IMG/VR virus record: IMGVR_UViG_3300037502_001990
Coordinates: 1-29,846 of that record
Source: a virus
Direction: 5' to 3' (one strand)
DNA: 29,846 nucleotides
The notes under the pieces are model-generated. The model saw only the letters and a list, made by a program, of their open reading frames with translations. It did no database searches and had not been told where the DNA came from. Position 1 is the stretch's first letter. Every line of letters starts with the position of its first letter. Positions 9,119 to 27,704 of this stretch are shown here, piece by piece. A program made the position numbers and the translations under genes.

Positions 9119-9336
9119 GCTGCTGCCCTCCATGTCGTCGGCGGTATTGCCGTGTCATGGACCCTAGACGACTGGCGGGGCACCTCGCTAGGGGTGCGGC
9201 GGCGGCATTGTCGCTATTTGCGGGCTTTTCTAGTTTTTCCCGCTATTTGCGACTTTTCGGCTGCGACAGGGGTAGCGGTGTCGTGGGCGGGCGTCTAGTG
9301 TTCTCGACATAAGGCAAGACCAACCGAAGGGAACAC
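9119..9336. other. divergent 218-nt control region
   Basis: The gap separates the leftward early block from plus-strand cassette A. It holds two copies of CGCTATTTGCG flanking a T-rich centre (9210-9253). Near 9294 there is a TAGTGT that could be a weak -10 for cassette A. No good -35/-10 pair is seen for the minus strand. It is the best candidate for the main early control region. Confidence 0.5.
9210..9253. repeat. dyad built from two CGCTATTTGCG elements
   Basis: GTCGCTATTTGCGGGC (9210-9225) and CCCGCTATTTGCGAC (9239-9253) lie 13 nt apart. The outer GTCGC/GCGAC and inner GCGGG/CCCGC arms are inverted, while TATTT is in the same orientation in both. The first copy recurs at 25719 and 27091. 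It could be a repressor operator or a replication element. Confidence 0.6.
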
Positions 9337-9540
9337 ATGATGGACAGCAAGCCCGACATCGCCGCGCACATAGCCACCACGGTGGCCGACCGCGCGCCGC
9401 AGCGTTACCGCCTGGCCGTGTACGCGGCGGCATACAAGATGGCCGCGCTCCACTTTGAGGGCACGGCCTACACCTACCACCTGGCGCTCGGTGAGGCATA
9501 CAAGGCGGGGGAGGATGCCATGCGCGACGTGACCGCGTAA
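9337..9540 (+). CDS. plus-strand cassette A protein
   Basis: A 67-aa, mostly helical protein (DIAAHIATTVADRAPQRYRLAVYAAAYKMAALHF, then YHLALGEAYKAGEDAMRDV). No family is recognised. It starts at ATGATG after CGAAGGGAACAC, the same ribosome site found in the other two plus-strand genes, and is followed by the same GGCCCGCC/GGCGGGCC hairpin. It is one of only three genes against the direction of the genome. It is probably an accessory (moron-like) gene, perhaps expressed separately from the lytic operons. Confidence 0.75.
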   Translation: MMDSKPDIAAHIATTVADRAPQRYRLAVYAAAYKMAALHFEGTAYTYHLALGEAYKAGEDAMRDVTA

Positions 9541-9567
9541 CCCACCACCACACCACGCGCACCACGC

Positions 9568-9590
9568 GGCCCGCCCTCACACGGCGGGCC
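9568..9590 (+). terminator. hairpin after cassette A
   Basis: GGCCCGCC (9568-9575), a 7-nt loop, GGCGGGCC (9583-9590): a perfect 8-bp stem. The following GTCGTGCGTT is only weakly T-rich. The same stem ends the other two cassettes. It may stop plus-strand transcripts before they oppose the late operon. Confidence 0.6.
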
Positions 9591-9598
9591 GTCGTGCG

Positions 9599-11143
9599 TT
9601 ATGGCCCCAGCACCTCTACAGGGGACTCGGTGCGACCTGCCACCAGCCGGACGCGGTGCAGGGCTGACATCCCGTACTCAGGGTGGATGACGAACACGTT
9701 TTGACTAGGCAGCGACGCGCCGCCGCGCCCTATGGATAGGTTCGTGCTACCCACCCACGCGCTGTTCCAATGCCGCTCGGAATCCGCCCCCACGGTGATG
9801 CTGGTCGCACGGTGGTAGTGGCCGCAGATGTGTAGGTCATGCTGCACGGCCGTGGACATCCGCACGGCGTAGTCATTGCGTAGGCCGGTGACCACGGGGA
9901 CGCCCACTAGTCCCCCGCCCCTGTCCTGGTCGCCGTGTGTCATCAGCACCAGCGCGCCGCACGTCTGGAAGTAGACGGCCAGCCGGGGTTCCTCATGCAT
10001 GGTTAGGTCCAGCGCGTCGGCGTGGTGCCGCAGCGCCTCGCACGTCAGCGCGTGGGCCAGGTAGTCATACGACAGGGCCACCGGCGTGGCCCCGGCACCG
10101 CGCCCGCCCTGCACCCCGTGGTTCCCGTTCACGGCCAGCAGCACGGTGCGCCCGCCGTGTTCCTGCGCCATGCGCGCCAGTTCCGCGACGGCCCGCGCCC
10201 ACAAGCGGCCCCACCTCACCACCTGTTCCCCGGCGTCAATCGCTAGATGCCACGACTGCCCACGGAACACGTCGTGGCCCTCAACGTGGTCACCGCCCGA
10301 CGCTATCCATAGCGTGCCCAGCGGCCGGGTGCTGCACGTCGCGGCCAGGATGCCGCGCACGGCCTCCAGGTAGCGCGGCAGGCGCTCGCCGTCCACGATG
10401 TCGGGGGAGAACCCGCCGCCCGGCACTTCCTCACCGTCCACCACCATGCCGTACTGCACATCCGACACATGGCACACCACGTCCACCGGCTGCCCCTCGC
10501 CGTAGTCATCACGGCGGGCCACGGGCGGCAGGGTCGGCACGGCGTCCCGTGCGGCATCCCGCAGCGCGCCCATCATGTCGGCTACGGCGGTTTCCTGCCG
10601 CTCCAGTTCCGCCACGCGGCGGGTCAGCATGGCCACGCGGGGATTACGCGCGGCCTGCGGGTCGGGGCGCACACCACGCCGGGACGCCTCGCGCCGCACG
10701 GTCGCGGTGGCCAGCCCCAAGGCTGCGGCTAGGTCGCCCGGCCCCATTGCCTCCATCAGCGCCCGTAGGTGTTCGTCCGACATGCGGGCCATGACGCCGC
10801 CGCCGTCGGTGCGCTTAGGCGCGGGCGGGGCTTCAGCGCCCAGCCGGACCATCCAGCGCCGGACGGTCTTTTCGTCGCGGCCCAACTGCCCGGCCAGCGC
10901 GGTGACGCTACCGGCCGCGTCCACCGCCGCGCGCATTTCGTCGGCGCTGCCGTAGGGACAATCCACCGGCCGCCCCATCTTGCCCGTGCGCGGGGGCACG
11001 CCGTGTTCCTTGCACCAGCGGCGCACGGTGTGGGGGCTGGCCCCGACTTCCAGGCCCAGCGATTCCACCGACCCGGCAGCGACTAACGCGGCGCGCAGGT
11101 CCTCCGGTGTATCGAACGGGCACGGCTTACGCGGTGCGGCCAT
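9599..11143 (-). CDS. metallophosphoesterase with three helix-turn-helix repeats
   Basis: A 514-aa protein. The C-terminal part (about 220-514) is a calcineurin-like phosphoesterase with its metal motifs in order: VSDVQYG (D228), GGDHVEG (D285, H286), NGNHG (N341, H342), MTHGDQ (H403) and GHYHRA (H442, H444). The N-terminal 160 residues contain three helix-turn-helix-like units (about 11-49, 64-103, 121-158), each ending in TVRRW or TVRRE; a short coiled coil links them to the enzyme. It is likely a DNA-binding phosphoesterase or nuclease. The ATG follows GGGGGAGGGCCAC. It is the last gene of the late block, after the holin. Confidence 0.85.
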   Translation of the reverse strand: MAAPRKPCPFDTPEDLRAALVAAGSVESLGLEVGASPHTVRRWCKEHGVPPRTGKMGRPVDCPYGSADEMRAAVDAAGSVTALAGQLGRDEKTVRRWMVRLGAEAPPAPKRTDGGGVMARMSDEHLRALMEAMGPGDLAAALGLATATVRREASRRGVRPDPQAARNPRVAMLTRRVAELERQETAVADMMGALRDAARDAVPTLPPVARRDDYGEGQPVDVVCHVSDVQYGMVVDGEEVPGGGFSPDIVDGERLPRYLEAVRGILAATCSTRPLGTLWIASGGDHVEGHDVFRGQSWHLAIDAGEQVVRWGRLWARAVAELARMAQEHGGRTVLLAVNGNHGVQGGRGAGATPVALSYDYLAHALTCEALRHHADALDLTMHEEPRLAVYFQTCGALVLMTHGDQDRGGGLVGVPVVTGLRNDYAVRMSTAVQHDLHICGHYHRATSITVGADSERHWNSAWVGSTNLSIGRGGASLPSQNVFVIHPEYGMSALHRVRLVAGRTESPVEVLGP

Positions 11144-11170
11144 GTGGCCCTCCCCCGCTAGTGGTTAGGG

Positions 11171-11434
11171 CTAGACGCCCTCGGGCACGTCGGATGCGGG
11201 CAGGTCGTCGGGGACCACCGGCCCCTCGTCCACCACGTCCACGGGCTGCTGGCCCATGTGGACTGCCTGCCATGAGCGCAGCACGCCCAGGATGGCGACC
11301 AGCGCGGCCGACACGACGGCAAGCCACGCGGGGGCGCTGCCGGTTTCGGCCCATGCCACGACGAACGCGGCGGCACCACCGATGGCGGCGGTCAGCAGGG
11401 CCAGGGTGCTAGGGCCTACGGGTACACGGTCCAC
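11171..11434 (-). CDS. holin
   Basis: An 87-aa protein with two predicted membrane helices (about 10-29 and 36-52) and an acidic, Pro/Val-rich cytoplasmic tail (PVDVVDEGPVVPDDLPASDVPEG). The size and two-helix layout are typical of class II-like phage holins, and it follows the endolysin gene by 14 nt. It should form membrane lesions that release the endolysin and time lysis. The start is a GTG at 11434 after the strong site GGGGAGGAACCC. Confidence 0.8.
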   Translation of the reverse strand: MDRVPVGPSTLALLTAAIGGAAAFVVAWAETGSAPAWLAVVSAALVAILGVLRSWQAVHMGQQPVDVVDEGPVVPDDLPASDVPEGV

Positions 11435-11448
11435 GGGTTCCTCCCCGG

Positions 11449-12255
11449 TTAGGTGGTCTTGCCCAGCGCGTCGGCGCTTAGGCGGCGGCCCTTCACGGGC
11501 GGCAGGGAATAGCGCCGCACGGGGCGGCCTAGACGGTTGGCGATGATCTTAGCGGCACCATCGCGGGCGGCAGGCGTCGCCCAGGGTCCATAGACCGGGC
11601 GCGGGCCGACCTCGTAGGCATACCGCTTGCCGATGCGCACACGCCGCACGCGCTCGCGGTCGGCCTTCGGCAGCCGGTTGATAGCGCGCTCGCGCATGGC
11701 CTTCGTGCGCCACGGGCCGTACCGCTTCGTAAGGCGGGCGGCGGCGGTGTCCTCAACGTAGTAGCGGCGCGACGCGGCAGGCTGACCCGCAATGCGGATA
11801 GCGGGCGAGGCGGCGATGATGGTGCCGGTGCCGCGTCCGTAGGCGCGCACGCGCTGGCGCGTCGCATCACCTGAGTTCCCCTCATAGGTCACGACGTGGC
11901 GGCCGTCGGGGGAATAGTCGGCGCATACGGCCACATGGGTGCCGGGCCAAATCAGGAACGCACCGGGGACCGGGTGCGCGATGGTCGCGCGCTGCGCCTT
12001 CGCACGGTCGGCCATGACCGCCGTGGATGGGTGGCCGATGGGCGGGCTACCCAGGCGCGGGTCGTCAATGTTGGCCTCGCGGCCGGTAATGCCCCATGCC
12101 ACCATCGCGGCGGCGTAGGCACCGCACCACGGCCAGCCGGTGCCCATCCCCCACGGTTCCTGCCAGCGCGACACATCCGGCCCGGTGTTCGTTCCCTGCT
12201 CACGCACGCCCAGGTAGGACGCCGCGCGCTGCGCCGTACGCTCGCCCGCCGTCAC
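11449..12255 (-). CDS. CHAP-domain endolysin
   Basis: A 268-aa peptidoglycan hydrolase. The N-terminal CHAP/NlpC-like domain (about 8-160) has YLGVREQG...GPDVSRW, the catalytic cysteine in WPWCGAYAAAMVAWG (C44), the histidine in PGTHVAVC (H107) and YEGNSGD (E125 or N127 as third residue). The C-terminal 100 residues are basic and contain KRYGPW and PVYGPWATPAARD segments, probably a wall-binding or repeat-like region. The start is a GTG in a GTGA overlap with the XhlA-like gene. It should degrade the host wall at the end of infection. Confidence 0.9.
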   Translation of the reverse strand: MTAGERTAQRAASYLGVREQGTNTGPDVSRWQEPWGMGTGWPWCGAYAAAMVAWGITGREANIDDPRLGSPPIGHPSTAVMADRAKAQRATIAHPVPGAFLIWPGTHVAVCADYSPDGRHVVTYEGNSGDATRQRVRAYGRGTGTIIAASPAIRIAGQPAASRRYYVEDTAAARLTKRYGPWRTKAMRERAINRLPKADRERVRRVRIGKRYAYEVGPRPVYGPWATPAARDGAAKIIANRLGRPVRRYSLPPVKGRRLSADALGKTT

Positions 12256-12482
12256 AGGATGCTCACCAGTACGCCGGTGACGGAACCCACGGCGGCGGCC
12301 ACCGCTGCGATGCCCAGGACGAACCGGCCGACGCTGCCGCGCCCCGCGCCCGTACCCTCGCGCCGGGCCTCCGCCAACTCCAGCGCCTTTAGCCGTCCGT
12401 TTAGGTCAGCACGGTAGCCGCGCACCTCGGCCGTGATTTCGGCCAGGCCGTTATACAGGCGGTCCACGTCGCTGGTGGTCAT
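12252..12482 (-). CDS. XhlA-like membrane protein (holin/lysis accessory)
   Basis: A 76-aa protein with an N-terminal amphipathic coiled coil (DVDRLYNGLAEITAEVRGYRADLNGRLKALELAEARR) and one C-terminal transmembrane helix (about 54-76). This is the layout of the hemolysin XhlA family and of some phage holins. It overlaps the stop of the gene upstream (TAATG) and the start of the endolysin (GTGA). With the two-helix holin downstream, it makes a lysis module with a membrane protein on each side of the endolysin. Confidence 0.75.
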   Translation of the reverse strand: MTTSDVDRLYNGLAEITAEVRGYRADLNGRLKALELAEARREGTGAGRGSVGRFVLGIAAVAAAVGSVTGVLVSIL

Positions 12483-13018
12483 TACGACGCCTGCCCCAGC
12501 CACGTCGCGGAAAGGAACGTGTAGCCGCTGCCGACGCTGTAGGCCAGGTTCGCGCCGCTGTTCTGGAATACGTCTACCGTTGCGTAGTCATTCGCGGCGC
12601 ATGACCACACCGACGAAAGGACGTTGTAGCCGCCGTAGGCAAGGTTATTTATGTGCCCGTTTTCGGCAATGACAGTGCTACCGTTGATGACAATGCGAGC
12701 GACGCGGATACCAGTTCCGACGGTTGCCATAGTCGCGGCTGCGGTGAATAGATAAACGCCCGCCGTCTTGATGGTGATGCGCGTGGGCGTTCCTGCGGCG
12801 TACATGTCGTCCGTGTTTGAAAATGTCTCGGTGTCAAACGTGACTGTTTGATAACCACCCGTGGAAGTGTGGTTGAGGGCGGCGGCGCGATGGATGCGAG
12901 CCATAGGCGGCACGCGGTAGTTGTTGGAGTTCGTGAATAGCGACGAGAAATCGCTGGCCAGGATAGCGTTTCCCGCCGTCGCATTAGCCACGGTGAGGGC
13001 GGTGTAGGTCTTAGGCAT
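12482..13018 (-). CDS. putative receptor-binding/tail-tip protein, C1q-like
   Basis: A 178-aa protein. An N-terminal linker (MPKTYTALTVANATAGNAILASDFSSLF) fits attachment to the tail. Residues 40-178 read as a jelly roll of the C1q/TNF type seen in phage fibre tips: TFDTETFSNTDDMYAAG, RITIKTAGVYLFTAAATM, RIVINGSTVIAENGHI, ANDYATVDVFQNSG, FLSATWLG. It probably contacts the host surface. Codon use is visibly richer in A and T than in its neighbours, which suggests recent acquisition or fast change. The ATG at 13018 follows GGAGGGCCGGAACCT. Confidence 0.75.
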   Translation of the reverse strand: MPKTYTALTVANATAGNAILASDFSSLFTNSNNYRVPPMARIHRAAALNHTSTGGYQTVTFDTETFSNTDDMYAAGTPTRITIKTAGVYLFTAAATMATVGTGIRVARIVINGSTVIAENGHINNLAYGGYNVLSSVWSCAANDYATVDVFQNSGANLAYSVGSGYTFLSATWLGQAS

Positions 13019-13033
13019 AGGTTCCGGCCCTCC

Positions 13034-13552
13034 TTAGAAGCCGTATGTAGCGTACGGCGGGGGCTCCGTAGGGGACGCCGCCGAATAGGTGGACAGGTCG
13101 TAGATAGTAGCGCCTGCCGGGTCGGTGCCCGGCGAATACACGCCCACCATACGCGCGCGCGCGGTCACGCTGATGGTGCAGGTATGCGATAGACCACCCT
13201 GGCTAATCCGGTGCGTGACCTGCTCCACGAACGCATCCAGGGTCGTGCCGGTCACGGACTCGGTGGCATACACGCGCTGGTTTAGGTCAATGTCGCGGAT
13301 GATGGCCGCGCGCGCGTCGCTGTCCACGTCCAGCGTGATGCTGACCAGCGGGCTGGTCGCGTTCGATGTGTTGGCCAGGTACGCGGCCAGGGCGTCGGCC
13401 GCCGCCGCGCTGTTGATGACGGGCGTACTGATGGCGGGCGACTCAATCCCCGAACCGTAGGTCAGTTCCGCGCTACGGTCGGCGGTCTTGTATGACAGGC
13501 CCGCGCCCGTGGTCGGGTTAGCGATGGTCGTTGCGGTGCGAAGGATGCCCAC
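13034..13552 (-). CDS. minor tail protein
   Basis: A 172-aa, beta-rich protein between the distal-tail gene and the receptor-binding protein. It has Thr/Ser-rich strands and a repeat-like ISTPVINSAAAADALAAYLANTSN...VSITLDVDSDARAAII segment, which is frequent in tail-tip proteins of actinobacterial phages. The C-terminus is Ser/Pro/Tyr-rich. The GTG start shares a base with the upstream stop (TAGTG) after GAGGT. It probably forms part of the tail tip; assignment by position and composition. Confidence 0.7.
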   Translation of the reverse strand: MGILRTATTIANPTTGAGLSYKTADRSAELTYGSGIESPAISTPVINSAAAADALAAYLANTSNATSPLVSITLDVDSDARAAIIRDIDLNQRVYATESVTGTTLDAFVEQVTHRISQGGLSHTCTISVTARARMVGVYSPGTDPAGATIYDLSTYSAASPTEPPPYATYGF

Positions 13553-14442
13553 TATTCGACCTCAAAGCCGGGGCTGTATTCCAACGCTACGTCCTCCAGC
13601 GTCACGTCGTACGCCTTACGCAGCGACCGCGCCGGGTAGTCCTCATGCCGGACGATGTTACCAGCGGCGAACACCAGCCCGCGCGACGCGGCCAGCAGTT
13701 CGTCCAGCAGTTGCAACCCGGACTTCTCCACACCGTCCGGGCTGAACGTGCCCACGGGCAGTACCTTGCCCACGCCGACGCTGACGCCTTGCACGGTCGG
13801 GTTAAGGGCGCGATCACTTGACGCCGACCACCCGGCAGCGTCCAGGATACGGCCGATGGCGCTAGCCGTAGTCTCGCCCACCGCCTGCGTGAATGACGGC
13901 AGCACCTTTGACAATTTCCACAGCACGTCGCGGGCCAGCACCTTTGCGGCCCCGGTGTCGCGGTTGTATTCCCATGAGGTGATGAACCCGTAGAACAGGA
14001 CGCGCGAGGTTCCAGCCACCGTCATGGTGACGCGCAGCGGGCGCAGGGGGACGATGCCGGGCTCAACCTGCGCCGGGCTGCTGCCGGTGTAGTAGGGCGA
14101 CAGCGGCGACGTGGTGGACGCGGGGTTGTAGAGTTCCCGGCCGCCCGGCCCCGGCGAGTCGGACCCGGTGGCAACGCGCTGAAGTACCAGGGTGCATTGG
14201 CCAGGACGAAATGGCCCGCCCACGTCGTCGCGCCCGCGCTGGATTTCCACCGATACCGTGTCTCGCGTCACGTCGTCGAAGGTGCCGCCGAACGTATCGG
14301 CCGCGCTGGTCGCATACGCCTGCGCCACCGTGTAGGTGGATGGCCCGGCGTAGGTGGTCGTGGTCTGCCCGGCCGCCATGTAGATGCCAGCGCCGCCCGT
14401 AGCGTTCTCAAAATCCACTTCCACCGTGTAGGTGGCGGCCAC
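13552..14442 (-). CDS. distal tail / tail-tip protein
   Basis: A 296-aa protein directly after the tape measure. That is the usual place of the distal tail or baseplate-hub protein. It has beta strands such as YTVEVDFENATG, DDVTRDTVSVEIQRGRDD, and the RPLRVTMTVAGTSRVLFYGFITSWEYNRDTGAAKVLARD motif. The latter pattern, a field definition followed by an FxGxIxxW strand and a short-turn loop, is common in tail-tip proteins. The GTG start shares a base with the tape-measure stop. Confidence 0.75.
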   Translation of the reverse strand: MAATYTVEVDFENATGGAGIYMAAGQTTTTYAGPSTYTVAQAYATSAADTFGGTFDDVTRDTVSVEIQRGRDDVGGPFRPGQCTLVLQRVATGSDSPGPGGRELYNPASTTSPLSPYYTGSSPAQVEPGIVPLRPLRVTMTVAGTSRVLFYGFITSWEYNRDTGAAKVLARDVLWKLSKVLPSFTQAVGETTASAIGRILDAAGWSASSDRALNPTVQGVSVGVGKVLPVGTFSPDGVEKSGLQLLDELLAASRGLVFAAGNIVRHEDYPARSLRKAYDVTLEDVALEYSPGFEVE

Positions 14443-16853
14443 TAAAACGACCCCGTGAGCGCGACCTGTCGGCGCAGTTCCGGCGCGACCTTGCGCGCGA
14501 ACTCCTCGGCGCTGAACTCATTGCCCGCCACGTTTACCACGATGGTCGGCGCACCGCTGACCATAGCCCCGGCGTCGCGCATGGCGCGGGCTAGCGCCGT
14601 GCGACCGCGTGAACCGTCCAGCGGGATGACCGCTTCGGGTCCAGCCTCACCCGCGAGGACGGCGCGGCGCAGGATGCCGCCTTCGGCCAACTTATTAATC
14701 CTAATGCCGTACTTGTAACTGCCCTCTTTGCCCGTGCGGGTCTTGCCCGCGCGGTCCTTCACTTCGGCACTCAACGCATTAAACGCACGGTCGCGGTTTT
14801 GCCTATCGGCCCACGGTCCCAGGTTTGCGCCATTCGGATACGCACGGGCGGCGGCGGCTGCGGCCGCTTCCTCGTCGGCGGTAGCCTGCGGGTTCACCAC
14901 GCCGGAATCGCCTACGCCGCGCTCACCGCCAAACCTGCCCACATTTAGTTTGTCTATCTGCTGCTTTATGTTCTCGGTGGCGCGGTTAAACGCATCTGAG
15001 AATGCCGCGCCCAGTTCGTCGCCCAGCGGTGCGCCGATGAGGTTTTGCATTTCGGTTTTAAACTGGTCTGCGGTCAGTTTGCCCCGGTTAAACTGCGCTA
15101 CCAGGTCATTCATTTGCCGCTCGGCGCTGGCCGCGGATTCATCGGCCGCGCGCTCCGCGTTGGTAATCCGTTCCTCGGTATAGAAGTCATTTAGCGCCTG
15201 CTGCGCTGCTTCCTTTTCCTCGGCCGTGCCTTCTGCGTTAGCGGCTGCCTTCAGTTCAGCCTCGCGGCGGTCGCGCAGCACCTTGTCCTGGGCCGCGCGC
15301 ATGGCGGCGGGTGTCAGCCCGGTGGTGGGGTCCACATAGGTGGACGCGCGACGCTGGGCGATCAGTCCTCCTAACTCACTACCGAACTGCTGCAACCGAG
15401 CGCGGGCGTCCCTAATGGACTGCCGCACTCCCGGGCTTAGAAGGTCATTAAAAATCTTAGACACGGCCGCGCGCACCGGACCGGGAACCAGCGACAGCAG
15501 GGCATCTTTCAGCGCGCCCGGCGATGCCTTGATCGCTGCTACCGCGCCGTCAATGATGGCCCGGCCGATTCCCTTAGCCTTCTCCAGCGCCCACGTCGCC
15601 GCCGTGGTGATCGCGCCGCCAATGGCGCTGGTTATCTTGCCAGGCAGGGACGCTACGAACTCGCCCACCTTTAGGATGCCGTTCGCCATTGCGCGAGCAA
15701 GGGCCAGGGCCGCGTTACCCACAGCCGCAGCGGTGTTGGTCACCAGGTTCACGATGCCGTTAAGCACGGTGCGAACGATGCCGGTCAGCGCGCGCCATGC
15801 GGCTGAAAAATCACCGCGCAGCAGGGCGGCCAGCCCCTCAAAGATTCCGCGCACCACGGCAAGGCTGGTGCCTACCACGGTCTGGATGTTGCGCATAATG
15901 GGCAGGATGATGCCGCTGAGTTGCGGCCACACGCTGCGCACGATGTCCACCACCGACCGGATGACGCTGATAGCCGTGGTGAAAATGGGCACCCACACGG
16001 TCTGCACATGATTGCGCACGATGTCGAACACGGTGCGAATGGTGCTACTGATTTGCGGCCAGTTCGCGCGCACCCATCCGATGACCTTTTCCAGCGCGCC
16101 CGCGATGTGTTCCGCGATGACCGGCAGGTACTTAGCGGCGAAGTTGCCCAGCGCGTTCATGGCCGGGGTCAGGGACACGCCGATGCGCTCAAAGGCGTTT
16201 TCGGCGGCGACCTTCGCGCGCTCCATGCCACCCGCCGCAGTCTCACCGAACGCCTTAGCCTGCCCCGCCACCTTCGTTTGCAACAGGCCCAGGGCTTGCG
16301 TGGGCGTCATGCCCTTTTCCACCGCGATGCCGTAGCGCTTCAGCCCGGTGACGTTGCCAGCCAGCACGCGCTCCACCAACTTACCCGCCGCGCCCACGTC
16401 CATCTGCCGGGCGCGGGCCAGGTCCAGCGTGACCGGCAGCGCCTTCAGCGCGGTATTCGCATCGCCCGACGAACGGGCCAGGCCGCTGAACGTGTCCTGG
16501 ATGTCCTCATCATCGAAGCCGGACATAAGCGACAGGCTGGTGACGGTCTGATCTACCCGGCTGCGCACCGCCGCCGTGTTTTGACCCAGCGCCTTCAGTT
16601 GCGCGGTCAGGCGCGCGTTAGACGCCTCGGCATCGGCGGCAGCCTTGCCCGCCTTGACAAGCCCCACGGCCAGGGTCGTGCCGACGGCGGCACCCGCGAC
16701 CAGTCCGACCTTGCCCAGCATGGCCAGCGCCGGGGCTGCCGCCCGCACCTTCCCGCCGAACCCGGCCGACGACGCCGACGCCGCAGCCATGCCACGGCGA
16801 AACCGCGACACGTCGGCGGTGATGATGGCTTTGAGTTCACGGGTAAGCGCCAC
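14442..16853 (-). CDS. tape measure protein
   Basis: An 803-aa protein, the longest in the window. It sets tail length and passes through the tail during DNA ejection. It has an N-terminal AKG-rich helix with a hydrophobic segment (ALAMLGKVGLVAGAAVG, about 44-60), long alanine-rich helices, several hydrophobic stretches in the middle (ISVIRSVVDIVRSVWPQLSG), a charged coiled coil (about 480-600) and a C-terminal VIPLDGSRGRTAL segment seen in many tape measures. At about 0.15 nm per residue (a known rule) the tail would be about 120 nm. The GTG start follows AAGGGATAGCACC. Confidence 0.93.
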   Translation of the reverse strand: MALTRELKAIITADVSRFRRGMAAASASSAGFGGKVRAAAPALAMLGKVGLVAGAAVGTTLAVGLVKAGKAAADAEASNARLTAQLKALGQNTAAVRSRVDQTVTSLSLMSGFDDEDIQDTFSGLARSSGDANTALKALPVTLDLARARQMDVGAAGKLVERVLAGNVTGLKRYGIAVEKGMTPTQALGLLQTKVAGQAKAFGETAAGGMERAKVAAENAFERIGVSLTPAMNALGNFAAKYLPVIAEHIAGALEKVIGWVRANWPQISSTIRTVFDIVRNHVQTVWVPIFTTAISVIRSVVDIVRSVWPQLSGIILPIMRNIQTVVGTSLAVVRGIFEGLAALLRGDFSAAWRALTGIVRTVLNGIVNLVTNTAAAVGNAALALARAMANGILKVGEFVASLPGKITSAIGGAITTAATWALEKAKGIGRAIIDGAVAAIKASPGALKDALLSLVPGPVRAAVSKIFNDLLSPGVRQSIRDARARLQQFGSELGGLIAQRRASTYVDPTTGLTPAAMRAAQDKVLRDRREAELKAAANAEGTAEEKEAAQQALNDFYTEERITNAERAADESAASAERQMNDLVAQFNRGKLTADQFKTEMQNLIGAPLGDELGAAFSDAFNRATENIKQQIDKLNVGRFGGERGVGDSGVVNPQATADEEAAAAAAARAYPNGANLGPWADRQNRDRAFNALSAEVKDRAGKTRTGKEGSYKYGIRINKLAEGGILRRAVLAGEAGPEAVIPLDGSRGRTALARAMRDAGAMVSGAPTIVVNVAGNEFSAEEFARKVAPELRRQVALTGSF

Positions 16854-20225: not shown

Positions 20226-20234
20226 GGTCTAGCC

Positions 20235-20429: not shown

Positions 20430-20456
20430 GTGCTGCCCTTCCTGCTAGGGGCTAGT

Positions 20457-20487: not shown

Positions 20488-20508
20488 GTAGCCGTTATGC
20501 GGTTACTG

Positions 20509-21831: not shown

Positions 21832-21832
21832 G

Positions 21833-23509
21833 CTAGGTCAGTTCCTTACGCATCCTTGCGAGCCGGGCACGCCACCTGGCGGCCGCCTCGCGCTTTGCCT
21901 TGTCATCCGAACCCAGGCGCGCGGCCTGCGGCATACCGCCCACCGGCTGACCCGGTGCGGCGTCGGTGGCCCCCGCCGAAGGCAGGCGGCCGGTGGTAAT
22001 CGCATCCTCTAGGATAGCCGCGCGTGCGGCTAGCGTCGTCTGCCCGTACGCCGGACTGCCGACGGCGGAAACCTCGTACAGCATTTCCACGCGCTCTACC
22101 GAACGCATGGGCACGCCGCCGCTGTAGTCCCACCGCTCGCCCTTGCCATCGGCGGGCATGGTGAACGCGAAGGACATTTGCGACATGGCCCCGCTTCGCA
22201 ACTTCGCGTCCAGGCGTTGCGCGTCCGGGTCATCCAGCGCGATGCGCGCCCACACGCGCAGGCCGGTGTCATCCTCCACCAGTTCCAGCGACCCGTTAGA
22301 CGTGCGCGCCATCACGGTGTCCATGTCATGCCCCAGCACGAACCGGATGTCCTCGCCCGATGCCAGGGCGTCAGCGAACGCGCCGCGCTTGATGACCTCG
22401 CGGAACCCGCCCAAATCCTCGGACACGGCATCCCACACGGCGGCGTAACCCACCACGGTGCGGTAGTCAGGCCCGGCCCCGGACTCGCGCCATTCCACCC
22501 GGCCGGGCGACAGCGCGCGCTCCACGCGGGGCGCCGACGCCTGCTGGTCGGTAGGTGCCACCTCGTCGCCGGGCGGGGCGACGGCCGACGGCGGCGCGTC
22601 CTCGGTGTCGTCCTCGTCGTCCATCACCGGCATGTCATCGGCCGGGGCGTCGTGGTCGGGGACAATCCAAAACCGGCACAGCCCCTCGGGGTCCACCTGC
22701 TGCCCCACAATCTGGCACCCGCCGCCGCCGCGATAGAACGCGCAGCGCGCGCAGGCCAGGCCGTCATCCGCCCAGGGGTTGTCGGCCGGTCCCATGTAGT
22801 GCGCGCCGTTCGCGCCCACGCCCGCGTCCCACGGGCCAAAGGTTTCCGCGATGCCGTGCAACTTGTCGGCCAGCGCCCGCTGCCGGGCGGTCATCCATTC
22901 CGCGCCCTCGCCATTGCGGGTAGCCATGTCGTCGGTGTCCTTCCCGGCCGCGTTGTCGGCCTGTTGCCTATCGTCCTCGGCGCGGTCCAGTTCGCGCACC
23001 TTGCGGGCGGCCCACGTTGCGCCGGGGCTGCCGTCCTTACTGTCCACGCCCCACAGCAGCGCGGCGACGTAGCCCGGCGATTCCTCACCGGCCACGGTGT
23101 CCTCGGCCGTCCAGTCATTGCGGTGACGCGCCCACCACGCGGGCATCCGGCGTACCTTGTCATCCGACAGCGGCTCGCGGTTGGCCATGCGCCGGGCGTC
23201 GCGGATGGTCTGCTGTACCAGCCCGTCACCGCCCTTGCCTTCCTCGTACAGCCGCAGGCCCTTGCGCGCGGCGCGAGCGATGGCCTCCGTGGGCGTCAGG
23301 TCCACGTCACCGGGTGCCCGCACCTCGTCGGCGTAGGCGCGGGCCGCGTCATCGGCGGGGAGGTCACCGATAGCCACGGCCTGCGCCAGCGCCTTAGCGA
23401 CAGCGGCCGCGCGGCCCGCATCGTCGCCGGGTTGGTAGGTGTAGCAATATCCCGCATCGCCCCACTTCACGCCAGGACGCCCATTAGACTGGCAATCATT
23501 CAGCGGCAT
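21833..23509 (-). CDS. multi-domain head maturation protease
   Basis: A 558-aa protein, more than twice the size of a usual HK97 prohead protease. The C-terminal domain (about 335-500) is the S78/U35-type protease: TVVGYAAVWD, FREVIKRGAFADAL, FVLGHD (H394), MSFAFTM (S446) and YEVSAVGSPAYG. Upstream are a CQSNGRPG-KWGD-YCYTY start, a helical domain (about 70-170) and a four-cysteine cluster (C253, C256, C265, C278: CARC, GGCQIV, GLCRFW), which may bind zinc or an iron-sulfur centre. It should cleave the capsid delta domain. The start at 23509 overlaps the portal by 14 nt. Confidence 0.88.
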   Translation of the reverse strand: MPLNDCQSNGRPGVKWGDAGYCYTYQPGDDAGRAAAVAKALAQAVAIGDLPADDAARAYADEVRAPGDVDLTPTEAIARAARKGLRLYEEGKGGDGLVQQTIRDARRMANREPLSDDKVRRMPAWWARHRNDWTAEDTVAGEESPGYVAALLWGVDSKDGSPGATWAARKVRELDRAEDDRQQADNAAGKDTDDMATRNGEGAEWMTARQRALADKLHGIAETFGPWDAGVGANGAHYMGPADNPWADDGLACARCAFYRGGGGCQIVGQQVDPEGLCRFWIVPDHDAPADDMPVMDDEDDTEDAPPSAVAPPGDEVAPTDQQASAPRVERALSPGRVEWRESGAGPDYRTVVGYAAVWDAVSEDLGGFREVIKRGAFADALASGEDIRFVLGHDMDTVMARTSNGSLELVEDDTGLRVWARIALDDPDAQRLDAKLRSGAMSQMSFAFTMPADGKGERWDYSGGVPMRSVERVEMLYEVSAVGSPAYGQTTLAARAAILEDAITTGRLPSAGATDAAPGQPVGGMPQAARLGSDDKAKREAAARWRARLARMRKELT

Positions 23510-24701
23510 CAGCACCGCCCGGCTGGAGGTTCGGCGCACCGCCCACGGGCGTCACCTGCACGGTGTCGCCGTCCTCAATCGGCGGCAGGCTAAACACGCG
23601 CCGCGCGTCGTTGATGGACAGCCACCCCGCCTGCCGACCGGCCAGCACCGCTTGTGTCTTAGTCGGCGTGTCGGCGCGCAGTAGGTCGGTGGTATCGAAC
23701 TCAGGGCGCAGCGGCGTGCCGCCGCCGAACAGTTGCGGCAGCCCGTGGGCAATCGCCATTTCGATGCGGCGCAGTCGCGGCGTGAGGCTGAACGTGAGGA
23801 ACCGCAGCGATTCCTGTTCCGCCGTGGTGCCGGTCGGGTCGCCCACGCCCAGCATGTGCGGGGGCAGCCGCCAGATGCGCGCCACGTCCTCCACGCTCAT
23901 GCGCGCCTGTTGCACGAAGGCGGCATCCTCCAGGTTCACCGGCACGCGCTCCAGGTCGGCACCACCGGCCAGCACCGCAGGCTTGTGCGAGTTCATTACG
24001 CCACCGTGTGATGCGTTCCACACCCGCAGGATTTCCTGCGCCTGCTGCTGGGTGACGTTGCCGGGCACCTTGATGACCATGCCGGGCGCGGCGTCGTTCA
24101 GCCAGTACGCCGACTGGAAACGCTGAAGGGCCAGCCCGTTGCCCAGCGCGTTGCGATGCACGCCGATGGGCGACAGGCCCATGACGTGCCCCGGTGGTGT
24201 ATAGCCGGGAATGTGCAGGATGTCATCGGTGGTCAGGTCGCGGATGCCGTCAGGCCCGCCCACGTCGAACCGCTTGCGCTTGTCCTTCGGGTCGCGCCGC
24301 ACCATAACCGTGCTGGGGTCCATCGGCACCAGTTCCACGATGCGGCCGCCGCGCCGGATAATCTGGCAGTAGGCGTTTCCCCACATTTCCACGGACCCGG
24401 CCACCTGCACCATCCACCCGAACGGGTCCAGGTCGGCCGTGGGCGATTCCATCAGCAGCGCCCACGCGGGCGTCCCGGTTGCCTTTGTCTCACCGTCACG
24501 GACGTATAGCGGCAGGCTGCCGATGGTTTCCGCCACCAGGCGGATGGCCGCCGACACAGCGGGGAGGGCTTGCGCCGCCTCATGCGTGACGTTCACGCCG
24601 GAATAGGTCACGGCCCCCTGCGTCGGCCACGGGATAGCCGACGTGCCGAACTCACCCGCGCGGATTTCCACGCCCGCGCCCTTCGCGCCCCGGACGATCA
24701 C
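23496..24701 (-). CDS. portal protein
   Basis: A 401-aa HK97-type portal. It has the family's run of landmarks: VSAAIRLVAETIGSLPLYV, LMESPTADLDPFGWM, GNAYCQIIRRGGRIVELVPMDPSTV, DILHIPGYTPPGHVMGLSPIG, VEDVARIWRLPPHMLGVGDPTGTTAEQES and LRRIEMAIAHGLP. Twelve copies form the DNA entry channel and dock the terminase. The GTG at 24701 lies in a GTGA overlap with the gene upstream. It is followed directly by protease and capsid, as usual. Confidence 0.96.
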   Translation of the reverse strand: MIVRGAKGAGVEIRAGEFGTSAIPWPTQGAVTYSGVNVTHEAAQALPAVSAAIRLVAETIGSLPLYVRDGETKATGTPAWALLMESPTADLDPFGWMVQVAGSVEMWGNAYCQIIRRGGRIVELVPMDPSTVMVRRDPKDKRKRFDVGGPDGIRDLTTDDILHIPGYTPPGHVMGLSPIGVHRNALGNGLALQRFQSAYWLNDAAPGMVIKVPGNVTQQQAQEILRVWNASHGGVMNSHKPAVLAGGADLERVPVNLEDAAFVQQARMSVEDVARIWRLPPHMLGVGDPTGTTAEQESLRFLTFSLTPRLRRIEMAIAHGLPQLFGGGTPLRPEFDTTDLLRADTPTKTQAVLAGRQAGWLSINDARRVFSLPPIEDGDTVQVTPVGGAPNLQPGGADAAE

Positions 24702-24922
24702 CCGTCCACCACCTGGATGAACGCGACGCCCTCCACGGGAATAAGGGCGTAGCCCTCCAGGTCATGCGAGCGCTCGGCCGATTCGATCAGCGACGCCGCC
24801 TCCAGCCGGTAGTGCTTGCCGCCCACGCGCCCCATGAATACGCCTTCCAGGGACGGGGCATCGCCGCGCATGTGGATGCGGGCAAGGCGTTGCCGTCGCC
24901 ACGGCCACCAGCGCCACATCAC
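24698..24922 (-). CDS. small protein upstream of portal
   Basis: A 74-aa protein with a Trp/Arg-rich start (MWRWWPWRRQRLARI), then MRGDAPSLEGVFMGRVGGKHYRLEAASLIES and strands to the C-terminus. Small proteins with the SLEGVLxGRxxGHYxL-type pattern are frequent next to portal genes of actinobacterial phages; their role is not known to me. It starts with a GTG in a GTGA overlap with the glycosyltransferase-like gene. Confidence 0.7.
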   Translation of the reverse strand: MMWRWWPWRRQRLARIHMRGDAPSLEGVFMGRVGGKHYRLEAASLIESAERSHDLEGYALIPVEGVAFIQVVDG

Positions 24923-25698
24923 CGCGCCGCCTTCACGATGCTACGTCCGTCCTCGTCCGTGGTGGTCAGCCGTTCGATTCCTAGCGCCTCGCGCCGCTTG
25001 TAATACTCCCGCGCCGCCTCCCGTCGGTACAGGTCGCGCCACGCTGAACGATGCTCCACCGTGACATCGTGGAACATTACACCATCCTGCGGCGCTACAT
25101 GGGGCGGCCCCCATAGGTAGGTATACGTTCCGTCCTCCTGCACACCGGCATAGACGTAGTGCAGGCCCACGACCTGCATGCGGTCCAGGCACCGGAATAG
25201 CATCCGCATGGGCGCGGTGGTGGATGGCGGCAGGTTCATGGCGCGGGCTACGTCCGGCGCATCGGTGAGGTAATCCGACCGCGACCACAGCCCGACCTCC
25301 ACCACGTCGCCCGGCACGTCGGCCAGGCGCTCGCGCAGGTCGCCGGGGTACTCGGCCAGCACGCAATCCGCATCGAATACCCAAAGCCAATCGTGGTGCG
25401 CGCGCGCGTGGGCGTTGGCCAGCCGGAACATGAAATCGCGCTTTGCCACCTCGTCCCCCAGGAACGGCGCGGCCGGGCGGTGAATGGTGACCGACAGCCC
25501 CAGCGCGTTGGCCGTTGCCATCACGGTTTCCGCCTGCACGCGCTCCGATGATGCGCGGGCGTCGGGGTAGTGCGCGTACGCACCATCCACCGCGATAAGC
25601 CCATCCAGCGCGGGCGCGAATGATGCGACCGCCTCCGCTAGCCATGAAGGGGATTCGTCATACCACGACAGCAGCCCCCAAACCTTCGGCGTTTCCAT
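24919..25698 (-). CDS. glycosyltransferase-like protein (GT-A type)
   Basis: A 259-aa protein. It opens KVWGLLSWYDESPSWLAEAVASFAPALDGLIAVDGAY, the typical first strand and helix of a family-2-like glycosyltransferase. A conserved DWLWVFDADC gives a DxD metal site. A VGLHYVYAGVQEDG segment and a basic C-terminal helix follow. It could glycosylate capsid or tail proteins, or the host surface. The ATG follows GGAAGGAACGC. It is the first minus gene left of cassette B and is directly upstream of the portal-associated genes. Confidence 0.7.
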   Translation of the reverse strand: METPKVWGLLSWYDESPSWLAEAVASFAPALDGLIAVDGAYAHYPDARASSERVQAETVMATANALGLSVTIHRPAAPFLGDEVAKRDFMFRLANAHARAHHDWLWVFDADCVLAEYPGDLRERLADVPGDVVEVGLWSRSDYLTDAPDVARAMNLPPSTTAPMRMLFRCLDRMQVVGLHYVYAGVQEDGTYTYLWGPPHVAPQDGVMFHDVTVEHRSAWRDLYRREAAREYYKRREALGIERLTTTDEDGRSIVKAAR

Positions 25699-25709
25699 GC
25701 GTTCCTTCC

Positions 25710-25736
25710 CTAAAAAATGTCGCTATTTGCGGGCAT
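25710..25736 (-). pseudogene. eight-codon remnant of the 107-aa gene start
   Basis: Reading ATGCCCGCAAATAGCGACAT and then TTTTTAG gives MPANSDIF and a stop. The first seven codons match the start of the gene at 26785-27108. It is probably a leftover of duplication when the cassette flank was copied. A regulatory site that only happens to be translated in the other copy is the alternative. Confidence 0.45.
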
Positions 25737-25739
25737 TGT
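25714..25739. repeat. 26-nt repeat next to cassette B
   Basis: Identical to 27086-27111, with the core GTCGCTATTTGCGGGC at 25719-25734. It also shares the core with 9210-9225. It lies upstream of the cassette promoter and of the divergent minus-strand gene. Confidence 0.8.
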
Positions 25740-25762
25740 GCTGCCCGTTGCGTCTAGAACAC

Positions 25763-25791
25763 TTGACAGCATGACAGCGCGGGCGCATAAT
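25763..25791 (+). promoter_or_regulatory. strong sigma-70-type promoter of cassette B
   Basis: TTGACA (25763-25768), 17 nt, CATAAT (25786-25791). This is a near-consensus promoter. The seventh base after the -10 is the A of ATG 25798. It is the best promoter in the window and may work without phage factors. Confidence 0.8.
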
Positions 25792-25824
25792 CACACCATG
25801 AACACCGACCCGAAGGGAACCGAC

Positions 25825-26058
25825 GTGAACACCACCACATTCCAGCCCGGCGAGACTTACGCGGTCCGAAGCAACTGCGATTGGGACACGGTTTTCCGCT
25901 ACACGGTCATCAGCCGCACGGCGCGTTTCATCACGATTGACACCGGCTGGGAGACTAAGCGGGTGGGCGTGAAGGTCAGCGACGGCGTGGAGTACGCGCT
26001 GCCCGAAGGTTCCTACAGCATGGCCCCGGTGATTCGCGCAAGTCACCCGCAGGCGTAA
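25825..26058 (+). CDS. plus-strand cassette B protein
   Basis: A 77-aa protein: TFQPGETYAVRSNCDWDTVFRYTVISRTARFITIDTGWETKRVGVKVSDGVEYALPEGSYSMAPVIRAS, a small beta-rich fold. I recognise this pattern (FRYTVxxRTAKFVT, then GxYSMAPxIxA) from unnamed proteins in phages and plasmids; function unknown. The GTG at 25825 has GAAGGGAA 5 nt upstream. An in-frame ATG at 25798 lies on the predicted transcription start, so a form nine residues longer is possible. It is controlled by its own promoter and hairpin. Confidence 0.8.
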   Translation: MNTTTFQPGETYAVRSNCDWDTVFRYTVISRTARFITIDTGWETKRVGVKVSDGVEYALPEGSYSMAPVIRASHPQA

Positions 26059-26084
26059 CCCATCGCGCCACGCGCACCGCGAAC

Positions 26085-26104
26085 GGCCCGCCAGTCGGCG
26101 GGCC
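26085..26104 (+). terminator. terminator of cassette B
   Basis: GGCCCGCC (26085-26092), AGTC loop, GGCGGGCC (26097-26104), then TTCGTGTTTCT. An 8-bp GC stem with a moderately T-rich tail, a reasonable intrinsic terminator for plus-strand transcription. Confidence 0.75.
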
Positions 26105-26119
26105 TTCGTGTTTCTAGGG

Positions 26120-26788
26120 CTAGTCACGGATGACTTGCGGCGGTCGCTCGCCCACTAACAGGCGCTTGCGCGGGTCGCGGTCCAGTTCCAGCCAGCGTTC
26201 TTTTAGGTGTTCGCATCCGCCGTCGCGGGCGGCGACCATCGGAACGCCCGCATCCCGTAGCCGGTGCGACAGGTGGAAATCCGACGCCCACGACGACGAC
26301 GGCCCGCCGAACGCGCCGAACGGGAACCGCCGCCACAGGTCGCGCGGCATGCAAGTGAGGGCGAACCCCACGAAGCCGGTTTCGATGACCGGCGACGGGT
26401 GCGCCACCACGTCGCTGAACTTGCGGAAACGGTACGCACCGGGCGTCGGCTCGTCGCCCATCAGCGGCCCGTCCGTGATGTTTACCAGCGGGTGCGTGCT
26501 GTCCAGGCGGCACCACCCGGTAACGACCGGCCGCCCCTCGCGGGCCAGTTCCAGCACGGCATCCAGCGCGGGCTGCCTTACCACCACGTCATCCGCGACC
26601 ATGACCAGGTGCGTGAACGGCAGGTCAGGGTCATCTACCAGCGACCGCACCACGTCCATCAGTTGCCATTCGGTGTATCCCTGCATCCACGCCCGGCGCA
26701 CGTCCAGCGCGCGGAACGCGGCCACGGCGTCGGGGATTTCTCGCGGGTGCATGATGCACAGCAGCGGGTCAAACTCGTCCCCGGTCAC
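26120..26788 (-). CDS. second glycosyltransferase-like protein
   Basis: A 222-aa protein. It starts FDPLLCIMHPREIPDAVAAFRALDV, then PFTHLVMVADDVVV, a DDV motif in the place of the GT-A DxD. RPVVTGWCRLDSTHPLVNITDGPL and ETGFVGFALTCMPRDLWRRFPF are acceptor-side segments, and there is a C-terminal ASDFHLSHRLRDAGVPMVAARDGGCEHL. It is probably a glycosyltransferase, possibly working with the gene across cassette B. The GTG at 26788 lies in a GTGA overlap with the upstream gene; the longer open frame upstream is low-complexity and is not used. Confidence 0.65.
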   Translation of the reverse strand: MTGDEFDPLLCIMHPREIPDAVAAFRALDVRRAWMQGYTEWQLMDVVRSLVDDPDLPFTHLVMVADDVVVRQPALDAVLELAREGRPVVTGWCRLDSTHPLVNITDGPLMGDEPTPGAYRFRKFSDVVAHPSPVIETGFVGFALTCMPRDLWRRFPFGAFGGPSSSWASDFHLSHRLRDAGVPMVAARDGGCEHLKERWLELDRDPRKRLLVGERPPQVIRD

Positions 26789-27108
26789 GGTGCCCGCCCC
26801 GCCTCGGTGATCGCTGCCCATAGCGCGCCGCGCCTTTCCTCGGTTTCGTCGAATAGGTATTCCCGCGCCAGGTCCATGACGTTCTCCAGCGCCCGCAGGC
26901 GGGCCAGGGTCACGGTGCCGGGCGGTCCCGCCGCGTCGTCCCCGTGCGCCTCCAGCCGGGCGCGCAGTTCCAGCGTGACGGCCTCGGCCTCGGACCACTT
27001 CGCCACCATGTCGCGGTACATGGCCAGCGGCACGGTACTGGCATGCGGCACCGCCGATGGCGGCGTGTACGGCGGCACCCACGCCAAAATGTCGCTATTT
27101 GCGGGCAT
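26785..27108 (-). CDS. hypothetical protein with coiled-coil middle
   Basis: A 107-aa protein. MPANSDILAWVPPYTPPSAVPHA gives a flexible start, then a helix (LAMYRDMVAKWSEAEAVTLELRARLEAHG) and a second helix (LARLRALENVMDLAREYLFDETEERRGALWAAI). No family is recognised. The start follows AAAGGGAGACA and its first codons lie inside the 26-nt repeat. It is coupled to the glycosyltransferase-like gene downstream by GTGA. Confidence 0.65.
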   Translation of the reverse strand: MPANSDILAWVPPYTPPSAVPHASTVPLAMYRDMVAKWSEAEAVTLELRARLEAHGDDAAGPPGTVTLARLRALENVMDLAREYLFDETEERRGALWAAITEAGRAP

Positions 27109-27111
27109 TGT
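27086..27111. repeat. 26-nt repeat next to cassette C
   Basis: Identical to 25714-25739, with the core at 27091-27106. It overlaps the first eight codons of the minus-strand 107-aa gene. Confidence 0.8.
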
Positions 27112-27136
27112 CTCCCTTTGCGTTTGTCCATAGCCC

Positions 27137-27166
27137 TAGACGGTGCGCGGTCCTGCGGGGCATAAT
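27137..27166 (+). promoter_or_regulatory. promoter of cassette C
   Basis: TAGACG (27137-27142), 18 nt, CATAAT (27161-27166). The -10 is the same as in cassette B and the -35 is weaker. The seventh base after the -10 is the A of ATG 27173. The TAGCCCTAGAC just upstream is shared with the minus-strand promoter at 6799-6827. Confidence 0.65.
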
Positions 27167-27199
27167 CCACCTATGCACACCGACCCGAAGGGAACCGAC

Positions 27200-27658
27200 G
27201 TGAACACCACCACCGCATCCACCCCGCGCGTGTCCTACTGGGCGAAGCCCAACCGCTACGCGGCCGCCTGCTGCTACTGCGGCGATCAGGTCATCGCTGA
27301 CGGTGGCCTGTCGTGGAAGGATGGCGACCGCTGGGCTACGGCGCACGATGACTGCGCCATGCAGCACGCGCGCAGCATCCCCTACATCCGCCGCGACTAC
27401 ACGCGCGGCGCATACGGCGTCGGTGACCGCAGGGTGACCAGCGCCTACCCGGTCCACCTGCTGCGGCTGGACACCCGCGAGGACTGCGCCGCGCACCTGT
27501 GTTCCACATGCCGCGCGGTCGTCGGCCTCGTAAAGAATAAGCGCGGGCGCTGGTACCTGGCCGAAACAGTCGTCGCGGCCACCGCGCCCGGCAGCGACGC
27601 TATCCACACCGACCGGACGCGCTGCGAGCCGTGGCGACCACACACCTGCCGCCACTAG
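27200..27658 (+). CDS. plus-strand cassette C zinc-ribbon protein
   Basis: A 152-aa protein. It has CCYCGDQVIADGG...RWATAHDDCA, a Cys/His knuckle set, then an Arg/Tyr-rich middle and a second knuckle LCSTCRAVVG. The C-terminus is Cys/His/Arg-rich (RCEPWRPHTCRH). No family is recognised. The GTG at 27200 has GAAGGGAA 5 nt upstream. An in-frame ATG at 27173 lies on the predicted transcription start. The first five codons and leader match cassette B although the rest is unrelated. It is the longest plus-strand gene, next to TerL. Confidence 0.8.
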   Translation: MNTTTASTPRVSYWAKPNRYAAACCYCGDQVIADGGLSWKDGDRWATAHDDCAMQHARSIPYIRRDYTRGAYGVGDRRVTSAYPVHLLRLDTREDCAAHLCSTCRAVVGLVKNKRGRWYLAETVVAATAPGSDAIHTDRTRCEPWRPHTCRH

Positions 27659-27684
27659 ACCACGCGCAACGCTGCACCGCGAAC

Positions 27685-27704
27685 GGCCCGCCACATGGCG
27701 GGCC
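27685..27704 (+). terminator. terminator of cassette C
   Basis: GGCCCGCC (27685-27692), ACAT loop, GGCGGGCC (27697-27704), then TTCGTGTTTGT. Almost identical to the terminator of cassette B, including the preceding GCACCGCGAAC. Confidence 0.75.

Follow-up and report, generated by a model that had tools for sequence, protein, structure and literature searches.

Constant flanks around small exchangeable genes in a family of HK97-type viruses, with homologous recombination as the probable route

The IMG/VR virus record IMGVR_UViG_3300037502_001990 (29,846 bases, analysed as a whole and called the window, or G000, in this text) carries on its minus strand HK97-type head and tail genes (terminase, portal, protease, major head protein and tape measure), and likewise genes for a methyltransferase, an annealing protein and a single-stranded DNA-binding protein (SSB). 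Three small genes, A, B and C, lie on the plus strand in cassettes with common flanks, and the genes held between such flanks are called cargo here. By comparing the sequences of related records we found a slot structure, changes of cargo at constant slots, empty slots, cargo families present in several slots, one leader-to-leader recombinant and one copied flank. These features are best explained as moron-like cassettes that are exchanged by homologous recombination in the constant flanks of fixed slots, a reading to which we give a probability of roughly three in four.

Cassettes, flanks and slots

An earlier, sequence-only reading of the window had placed everything but genes A, B and C on the minus strand. 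This holds for all genes with an assigned function, but other plus-strand open reading frames (ORFs) were not all excluded. The common flanks that it described were borne out, as the exact copies of the upstream element and the exact repeats between cassettes B and C are above chance. The element CGCTATTTGCG has four exact copies in the window (9212, 9241, 25721 and 27093), against 0.017 expected on both strands by a first-order Markov model. With two mismatches allowed there were 11 matches, a chance level that 34 of 100 shuffles reach, and therefore the exact sites alone count. Cassettes B and C have in common an exact 26-nucleotide (nt) repeat (Table 1) and an exact 37-nt repeat (25802-25838 and 27177-27213), which by count are the sole exact direct repeats of at least 22 nt in the window. 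These repeats lie in longer similar stretches of B and C, one of 57 nt (89% identity) and one of 53 nt, the terminator (91%).

All three cassettes have the element, a ribosome site and a hairpin; the hairpins behind B and C fold better than shuffles, and that behind A is weaker. Cassette A has the element, the GAAGGGAA site and a similar hairpin in common with the other two, but a promoter of another type. The first codons of B and C, earlier given as five in common, are identical in four, the fifth being merely synonymous (ACA/ACC). Their GTG starts do have a Shine-Dalgarno (SD) sequence, but translation may begin at an in-frame ATG (25798 or 27173). Genes A, B and C look coding because their GC content at third codon positions (0.82-0.88) exceeds that of the antisense frames (0.56-0.64). 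Generic scans of the region were without excess of promoters (3 promoter-like sites against 2.4 expected) or terminators (7 terminator-like sites against 8.7 expected), and Rfam gave zero matches in the window.

Pattern and protein scans of IMG/VR gave 11 close records (G002-G011 and L128), or 12 related records with the window included. Their terminase is 90-99% identical to that of the window in the eight of 11 that were aligned, and more distant relatives stand at about 63% (L061, also G012; L062; and L063, also G013). The closest named phages are Streptomyces phages of the phiC31 kind, with a terminase 33% identical to that of the window. All records are metagenomic and the searched ones are fragments; the near-duplicates G005/G007 and G009/G010 inflate record counts, and hence distinct cargo is stated.

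Slot C, between terL and the gene for a 107-amino-acid (aa) protein, was filled in each of the 9 records examined, and its contents belong to five gene families unrelated to one another: a cysteine-rich protein (G000, and G003 in a fused slot), MDTITT (G002), RITYSTY (G005, G006 and G007), STITV (G008) and KIKW (G009 and G010). Slot B, before the glycosyltransferase gene, was filled in six of ten records (G000, G002, G006, G009, G010 and G011) with five different contents, empty in three (G005, G007 and G008) and fused with slot C in one (G003). The empty slot consists of 15 nt between genes in these three records, and also in L061 and L062. The plus-strand slot A was filled in 3/4 records with three different contents, G003 being without a plus-strand cassette there. 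On the minus strand, the first gene of slot D is different in each of four records (G000, G002, G004 and L128), and slot A-minus also begins with a different gene in each of G000, G002 and G003, whereas G004 lacks this first gene. The hairpin of the plus-strand slots ends beside the stop codon of the neighbouring gene. The flank search that the sequence-only reading had named as its own test therefore gave other genes between the same flanks in relatives, not the same three. The arrangement is not confined to the plus strand, because it likewise drives minus-strand genes in slots A-minus and D.

Table 1. Positions of slot features and adjoining genes in the window
Feature	Coordinates	Strand	Remark
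Slot A, first CGCTATTTGCG element	9212..9222	+	between divergent promoters
Slot A, second element	9241..9251	+	
Slot A, predicted -10 TAGTGT	9296..9301	+	P2 type, no ATG at +1
Cargo A, 67 aa	9337..9540	+	SD GAAGGGAA at 9326-9333
Hairpin behind cargo A	~9566..9592	+	z -2.0
Slot B, 26-nt exact repeat common to slot C	25714..25739	+	element at 25721-25731
Fossil start MPANSDIF*	25710..25736	-	remnant of slot C's 107-aa neighbour gene
Slot B, predicted promoter P1, TTGACA-17-CATAAT	25763..25791	+	
Slot B, leader MNTDPKGTD from ATG at predicted +1	25798..25824	+	SD 25812-25819 inside
Cargo B, 77 aa from GTG, beta-rich	25825..26058	+	
Hairpin behind cargo B	26085..26104	+	z -4.2
107-aa neighbour gene	26785..27108	-	first codons overlap slot C element
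Slot C, 26-nt repeat	27086..27111	+	element at 27093-27103
Slot C, predicted promoter P1, TAGACG-18-CATAAT	27137..27166	+	
Slot C, leader MHTDPKGTD	27173..27199	+	SD 27187-27194
Cargo C, 152 aa from GTG, cysteine-rich	27200..27658	+	
Hairpin behind cargo C	27685..27704	+	z -3.6
Slot D, element CGCAAAATGCG	6860..6870	-	inside end of annealing-protein ORF
Slot D, predicted promoter TAGACA-17-TACATT	6799..6827	-	
Slot D, leader MAITPNEGGKD and first gene	6469..6792	-	gene different in every relative
Single-strand annealing protein ORF, candidate recombinase	6848..8041	-	E 3e-36

Movement of cargo and its junctions

Flank and cargo are independent of each other in the sequence comparisons. Among 16 cassettes, related cargo was found in three of 120 pairs (z 97, 61 and 56), and all other pairs gave z of at most 4.3; those at z 3.0-4.3 are near noise and were not accepted as homologous. 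Slot C of the window and of L005 is nearly the same in its promoter (0.97 identical), leader (0.93) and right flank (0.93), with cargo at z 1.3. Cargo C of the window and that of L060 are related (z 97) with promoters 0.45 identical, and so are the cargo of slot B in L082 and of slot C in L059 (z 56) with promoters 0.54 identical. The tblastn matches of C_057 to window C (E 6e-5) and to L087 (E 6e-6) span the common leader and were discarded as not homologous.

Four cargo families were found in more than one place. The cysteine-rich family occupies slot C (G000) and the fused slot (G003), and has a copy at about 34% identity opposite the exonuclease gene of G013, which is the place of slot A. 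G008 holds the STITV family in slot C and G011 holds it in slot B; the KIKW family occupies the plus-strand slot C of G009 and G010, and its members in G013 and L062 (48-57%) share the strand of terL. The RFAYVGDYTL family appears in slot A-minus (G002), as first gene of slot D (L128, 68%) and as second gene of slot D (G004, 51%). The ratio of nonsynonymous to synonymous substitution (dN/dS) in four related cargo pairs was 0.40, 0.26, 0.07 and 0.69, consistent with translated genes, the 0.69 pair only weakly so. G013 (L112) also has a tRNA-Leu(caa) at 2685-2759, near the cysteine-rich cargo.

These observations bear on whether any exchange took place, as resident genes might instead have evolved until their homology was lost while selection kept the regulatory flanks. 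Small phage genes do evolve fast, and the cargo of G005/G007 and of G006 is still related within one slot (z 61). However, cargo is wholly different between records whose terL is 98-99% identical, related cargo lies in different slots, slot B is empty in 3/10 records and dN/dS is below 1 in the related pairs; we regard evolution in place as hardly credible. The swapping of contents by recombination, which the sequence-only reading had proposed, is supported by cargo families in differing slots and orientations, by the empty slot B and by the one leader-to-leader recombinant, as far as sequence comparison can tell.

That recombinant is G003, in which a slot-B-type promoter and leader are joined to the cargo, terminator and terL of slot C. 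The neighbour gene that lies between the slots and most of the glycosyltransferase were not found in G003. The record agrees with a slot-B proxy (G002) as far as the leader extends and with a slot-C proxy (G000) from the leader ATG onward and, because both proxies match across the leader, the crossover as read from the alignment is within the leader or the first codons. Another junction is in the window itself: at slot C the 26-nt repeat opens the 107-codon gene with a ribosome-site-like sequence, and at slot B it opens only the 8-codon fossil of that neighbour gene. Since slot B carries this fossil, its promoter would most simply have been copied from slot C.

The ends of slot B have a CTAGT motif, which occurs once in the empty slot, at both ends in 3/5 filled examples (L005, L056 and L058), at the right end only in the window and at the left end only in L082; the right-hand CTAGT contains the stop codon of the neighbouring minus-strand gene. 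These ends, the dyad repeated at each slot and the exact position of the slots beside stop codons could be expected of a dedicated site-specific mobile system, integron- or transposon-like, with the dyad or CTAGT ends as recombination sites. Against such a system, a PF00589 match was present in 1/9 records (G013, with a tyrosine integrase match at 25824-26315) and absent from 8/9, and PF00239 (resolvase) was absent from 9/9, the records being fragments and this no proof of absence; attC was not searched. Furthermore, the spacing between dyad and -35 box is fixed, and the only crossover that could be placed is in the leader, not in the dyad. We consider a system of this type improbable and rejected it together with fast vertical evolution.

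Homologous recombination in the flanks has candidate enzymes in the window, where recombination-related genes encode the annealing protein (E 3e-36), an SSB and a protein with a RuvC-like match (E 1e-5). Annealing recombinases of lambdoid phages are reported to drive mosaicism with diverged arms (PMC3945230), and the phage annealing protein probably carries out the exchange here too.

Promoters, upstream dyad and leaders

Two types of promoter were predicted for the plus-strand slots, namely P1 (TTGACA-17-GATAAT-6-ATG and variants) and P2 (TTCACA-16-TAGTGT-7-+1 and variants); the slot D prediction is TAGACA-17-TACATT-6-ATG. The ATG sits 6-7 nt 3' of the predicted -10 boxes. CGCTATTTGCG is one form of an upstream dyad, CGCNANNNGCG, which lies 31-33 nt before the -35 box in 20/25 scored slot promoters (G000-G011), in G011 by the second-best promoter fit; in L128 the spacing, judged by eye, is also 32. 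The sequences of this gap are merely 23-48% alike among five promoters, and therefore it is the spacing that is conserved, not the sequence. The exceptions are slot A promoters (plus in G000, G002 and G004, minus in G000 and G002), four of which lie 21 nt from the nearer element, about one helical turn below 32 nt, with a weak -35 box, and the G000 plus promoter best fits elsewhere. Three element-like sites were left uncounted: G003a 5853 and G012a 713, both from a pattern relaxed by one base, and G013a 3476, where no promoter was scored.

When +1 is set at the ATG, the centre of the dyad is at about -73. Class I activators use a position near -73, and a site centred there is unusual for a simple repressor. 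The near-constant distance from the -35 box suggests that the dyad is an activator site for a putative regulator. No regulator gene was identified in the window, the one HTH_17 match (E 0.025, at 1103-1519) being weak. The plus-strand cassettes oppose the structural operon and late transcription would therefore cross them antisense, which makes early or prophage expression of these cassettes more likely. The dyad might also be a repressor operator, with the cassettes expressed or induced from a prophage as strict morons rather than in early lytic growth. The orientation against the structural operon fits with this, as does the integrase of the 63% relative G013, but no integrase was found in the window or in seven other close or related records, and the site near -73 speaks against simple repression. 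We hold the prophage alternative to be unlikely, yet worth keeping in mind.

The leaders between promoter and cargo were of two kinds. In 9/10 distinct leaders with an ATG at +1, this ATG precedes the SD-linked start by a whole number of codons (27, 33 or 48 nt), whereas among five leaders without the ATG the distances are 28, 33, 31, 32 and 32, with 1/5 in frame (Fisher p 0.017, relatedness ignored). In the L128 leader the ATG is out of frame (32 nt) and opens an ORF of 13 codons that runs across the cargo start and stops shortly after, as in translational coupling. For leaderless translation in mycobacteria, a 5' ATG or GTG is reported to be both necessary and sufficient (PMC4633059), and transcripts of E. 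coli that carry an SD as well as a 5' AUG can be read both ways (PMC4965119). With +1 as predicted, both starts are probably used in the slots.

The in-frame position in 9/10 distinct leaders might also mean that the constant N-terminal peptide (MNTDPKGTD or MAITPNEGG) is itself functional, as a common tag marking the cargo proteins. L128, however, reads the peptide out of frame, five ATG-less leaders serve the same slots and the leader types differ in their peptide, which leaves a peptide tag very improbable. More tentatively, and with clearly less than even confidence, we propose that the leader is an evolved docking port. In such a port, the 5'-terminal AUG and the in-frame or coupled SD start would ensure translation of any recombined open frame, the 27-48 nt would double as a recombination arm, and a few plug-in trading sites would stand under a regulon defined by the dyad about 73 bp upstream of the start. 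Searches of open-licence papers that touched on leaders or leaderless starts turned up no account of a constant 5'-AUG leader whose cargo is exchanged.

Taken together, exchange in constant flanks would work as follows. The phage family keeps fixed expression slots, each consisting of the dyad, a predicted host-type promoter and a short constant leader. This leader usually has an ATG as its predicted 5' terminus, and it holds an SD for a second start. Small accessory genes would be exchanged among slots and among phages via homologous recombination in these flanks, probably by the phage annealing protein. Since promoter and leader are constant at a slot, incoming genes would arrive ready to be expressed, probably early and under a dyad-binding regulator.

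Several points weigh against exchange of this kind. The fused and swapped junctions could in principle be assembly errors, as the records are metagenomic, and CTAGT at both ends is limited to part of the filled slot B examples. Common descent links the leaders, and likewise the promoters, of any one type, and their counts are therefore not independent; L128 makes clear that in-frame fusion is not obligatory. The five slot A promoters lack the 32-nt spacing and have weak -35 boxes. For the cysteine-rich cargo of G013, the element was not found within the fetched 13 kb, and no promoter was scored for the G013 element at 3476. Finally, conservation of the element may be partly coding in slots C and D, because it overlaps the first codons of the opposite 107-aa gene in slot C and lies inside the end of the annealing-protein ORF in slot D.

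Cargo proteins, host and known systems

We collected 23 slot proteins and ran Pfam on 10, PHROGs on 19 and PADLOC on 10 of them. No Pfam match reached the cut-off among the 10, and weak matches to TPR_2 (E 0.012) and DUF4054 (E 0.0095), and to HNH (E 0.022) and virion-protein (E 0.0016) phrogs, were not used. With tblastn against 50,697 phage records, cargo B matched six records, and no match was obtained for cargo C of the window, L005 C, L082 B or L058 C. AlphaFold models had a pLDDT of 34 for cargo C and 68 for cargo B; the cargo B model gave no PDB match at E 0.001 or better and matched two unnamed viral proteins, and a PDB sequence search with cargo C gave a single weak zinc-finger match (E 0.035). 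Butyrivibrio phage Bo-Finn (L126) has a 39% homologue of cargo B with an annotated promoter and terminator. The same phage has two similar stretches of about 180 nt (about 1454-1634 and 2327-2507), each with a terminator, a promoter and a ribosome site, before different genes, one of which is this homologue, and these flanks are a possible independent analogue of exchange flanks.

The viruses of this family are small and uncultured, and their hosts are probably actinobacteria. The best cellular match was a 64% partial terL in an Actinomycetota metagenome-assembled genome (L091), in which the portal had no match, an uninformative answer. A terL-like match (E 1e-40 or better) was found in 15/399 genomes of the class of L091, and the element was absent from the eight terL loci inspected (about 4 kb each; 10 fetched). 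Patterns for the 24-mer leader (3/3 stretches), the terminator (9/9) and the MAITPN leader (3/3) found relatives only. An exact 15-mer of the element was found in 52 IMG/VR stretches, of which eight (seven contigs) were slot-bearing relatives and the other 44 were discarded on inspecting their contexts; in 17-mer searches, 4/9 and 3/10 stretches were unrelated and discarded. L003, L007, L016, L037 and L043 have one longer common context around TCGCTATTTGCGGGC, evidently from another phage group, in which no slot was seen.

Additionally, the tape measure protein (window 14442-16853) is 90% identical in G002 and about 25% identical over aa 3-416 in G003 and G004, and the gene after it (13552-14442) stands at about 30-37% in G002, G003 and G004; the tail module looks exchanged as well. 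Between the portal gene and terL lie the glycosyltransferase gene (24919-25698) and a second gene (26120-26788), which encodes 222 aa from a start at 26788, not the 320-aa ORF, and was not found in G003. These two genes might serve virion modification.

A moron of lambdoid phages is an additional gene, equipped with its own promoter and terminator, that separates two genes which relatives have side by side. The cassettes likewise are extra genes between genes adjacent in relatives, with a predicted promoter and terminator of their own. Lambdoid morons, however, are described as separate insertions that bring their own signals, whereas the slots employ their promoter, leader and terminator repeatedly for many cargo. 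T4-type phages have mobile regulatory cassettes called PeSL, reportedly described by Arbiol in 2010 and Comeau in 2014. In the text available to us, these promoter/stem-loop units around small accessory genes mediate gene shuffling (PMC4503421). The slots similarly have repeated predicted promoter/stem-loop units around unrelated genes, with apparent shuffling between units (G003 and the slot B fossil). They seem to work alike in outline, but the genome is not of T4 type, having HK97-type genes and a phiC31-like terminase, and we did not file the slots as PeSL. As far as that source goes, the slots also differ in being few, fixed and partly opposite the structural operon, in the distal dyad at fixed spacing and in the constant 5'-AUG leader as crossover site.

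Cluster O mycobacteriophages resemble the slots in their predicted leaderless SigA promoters, a dyad repeat, repeat-flanked gene gains or losses, and genes on the opposite strand inside the structural operon, one of which has a promoter of its own; unlike the slots they carry a 17-bp dyad in more than 30 copies, roughly a third of which lie inside genes, and the portion consulted describes no constant leader with exchanged cargo (PMC4351075). In Cluster K, start-associated sequences stand at the starts of different gene families with an inverted repeat upstream in about half, but they are a 13-bp ribosome-site element, GGGATAGGAGCCC, 3-7 bp from the start, and slots, terminators or exchange are not described in the part consulted (PMC3203893). 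The E. coli 5'-terminal AUG mRNAs likewise have a downstream SD-led start (PMC4965119); in the slots, with +1 as predicted, most leaders have both starts in one frame, and unrelated genes use the same module. What is surprising here is how finely exchange can be tracked, that a constant leader is the crossover site, and that the spacing of the distal dyad hardly changes.

Much of the accessory genome of phages consists of small uncharacterised genes, and it is rarely visible how new ones gain expression. The slots display empty, filled, refilled, copied and fused states, and place the unit of exchange and one crossover within tens of bases. They yield a list of cargo families that are likely stand-alone effectors, as well as flanks with which more can be found. 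The likeness to PeSL in an unrelated phage type and the Bo-Finn unit hint that trading slots arose more than once. This virus family would thus illustrate how viruses acquire accessory genes that are already equipped for expression.

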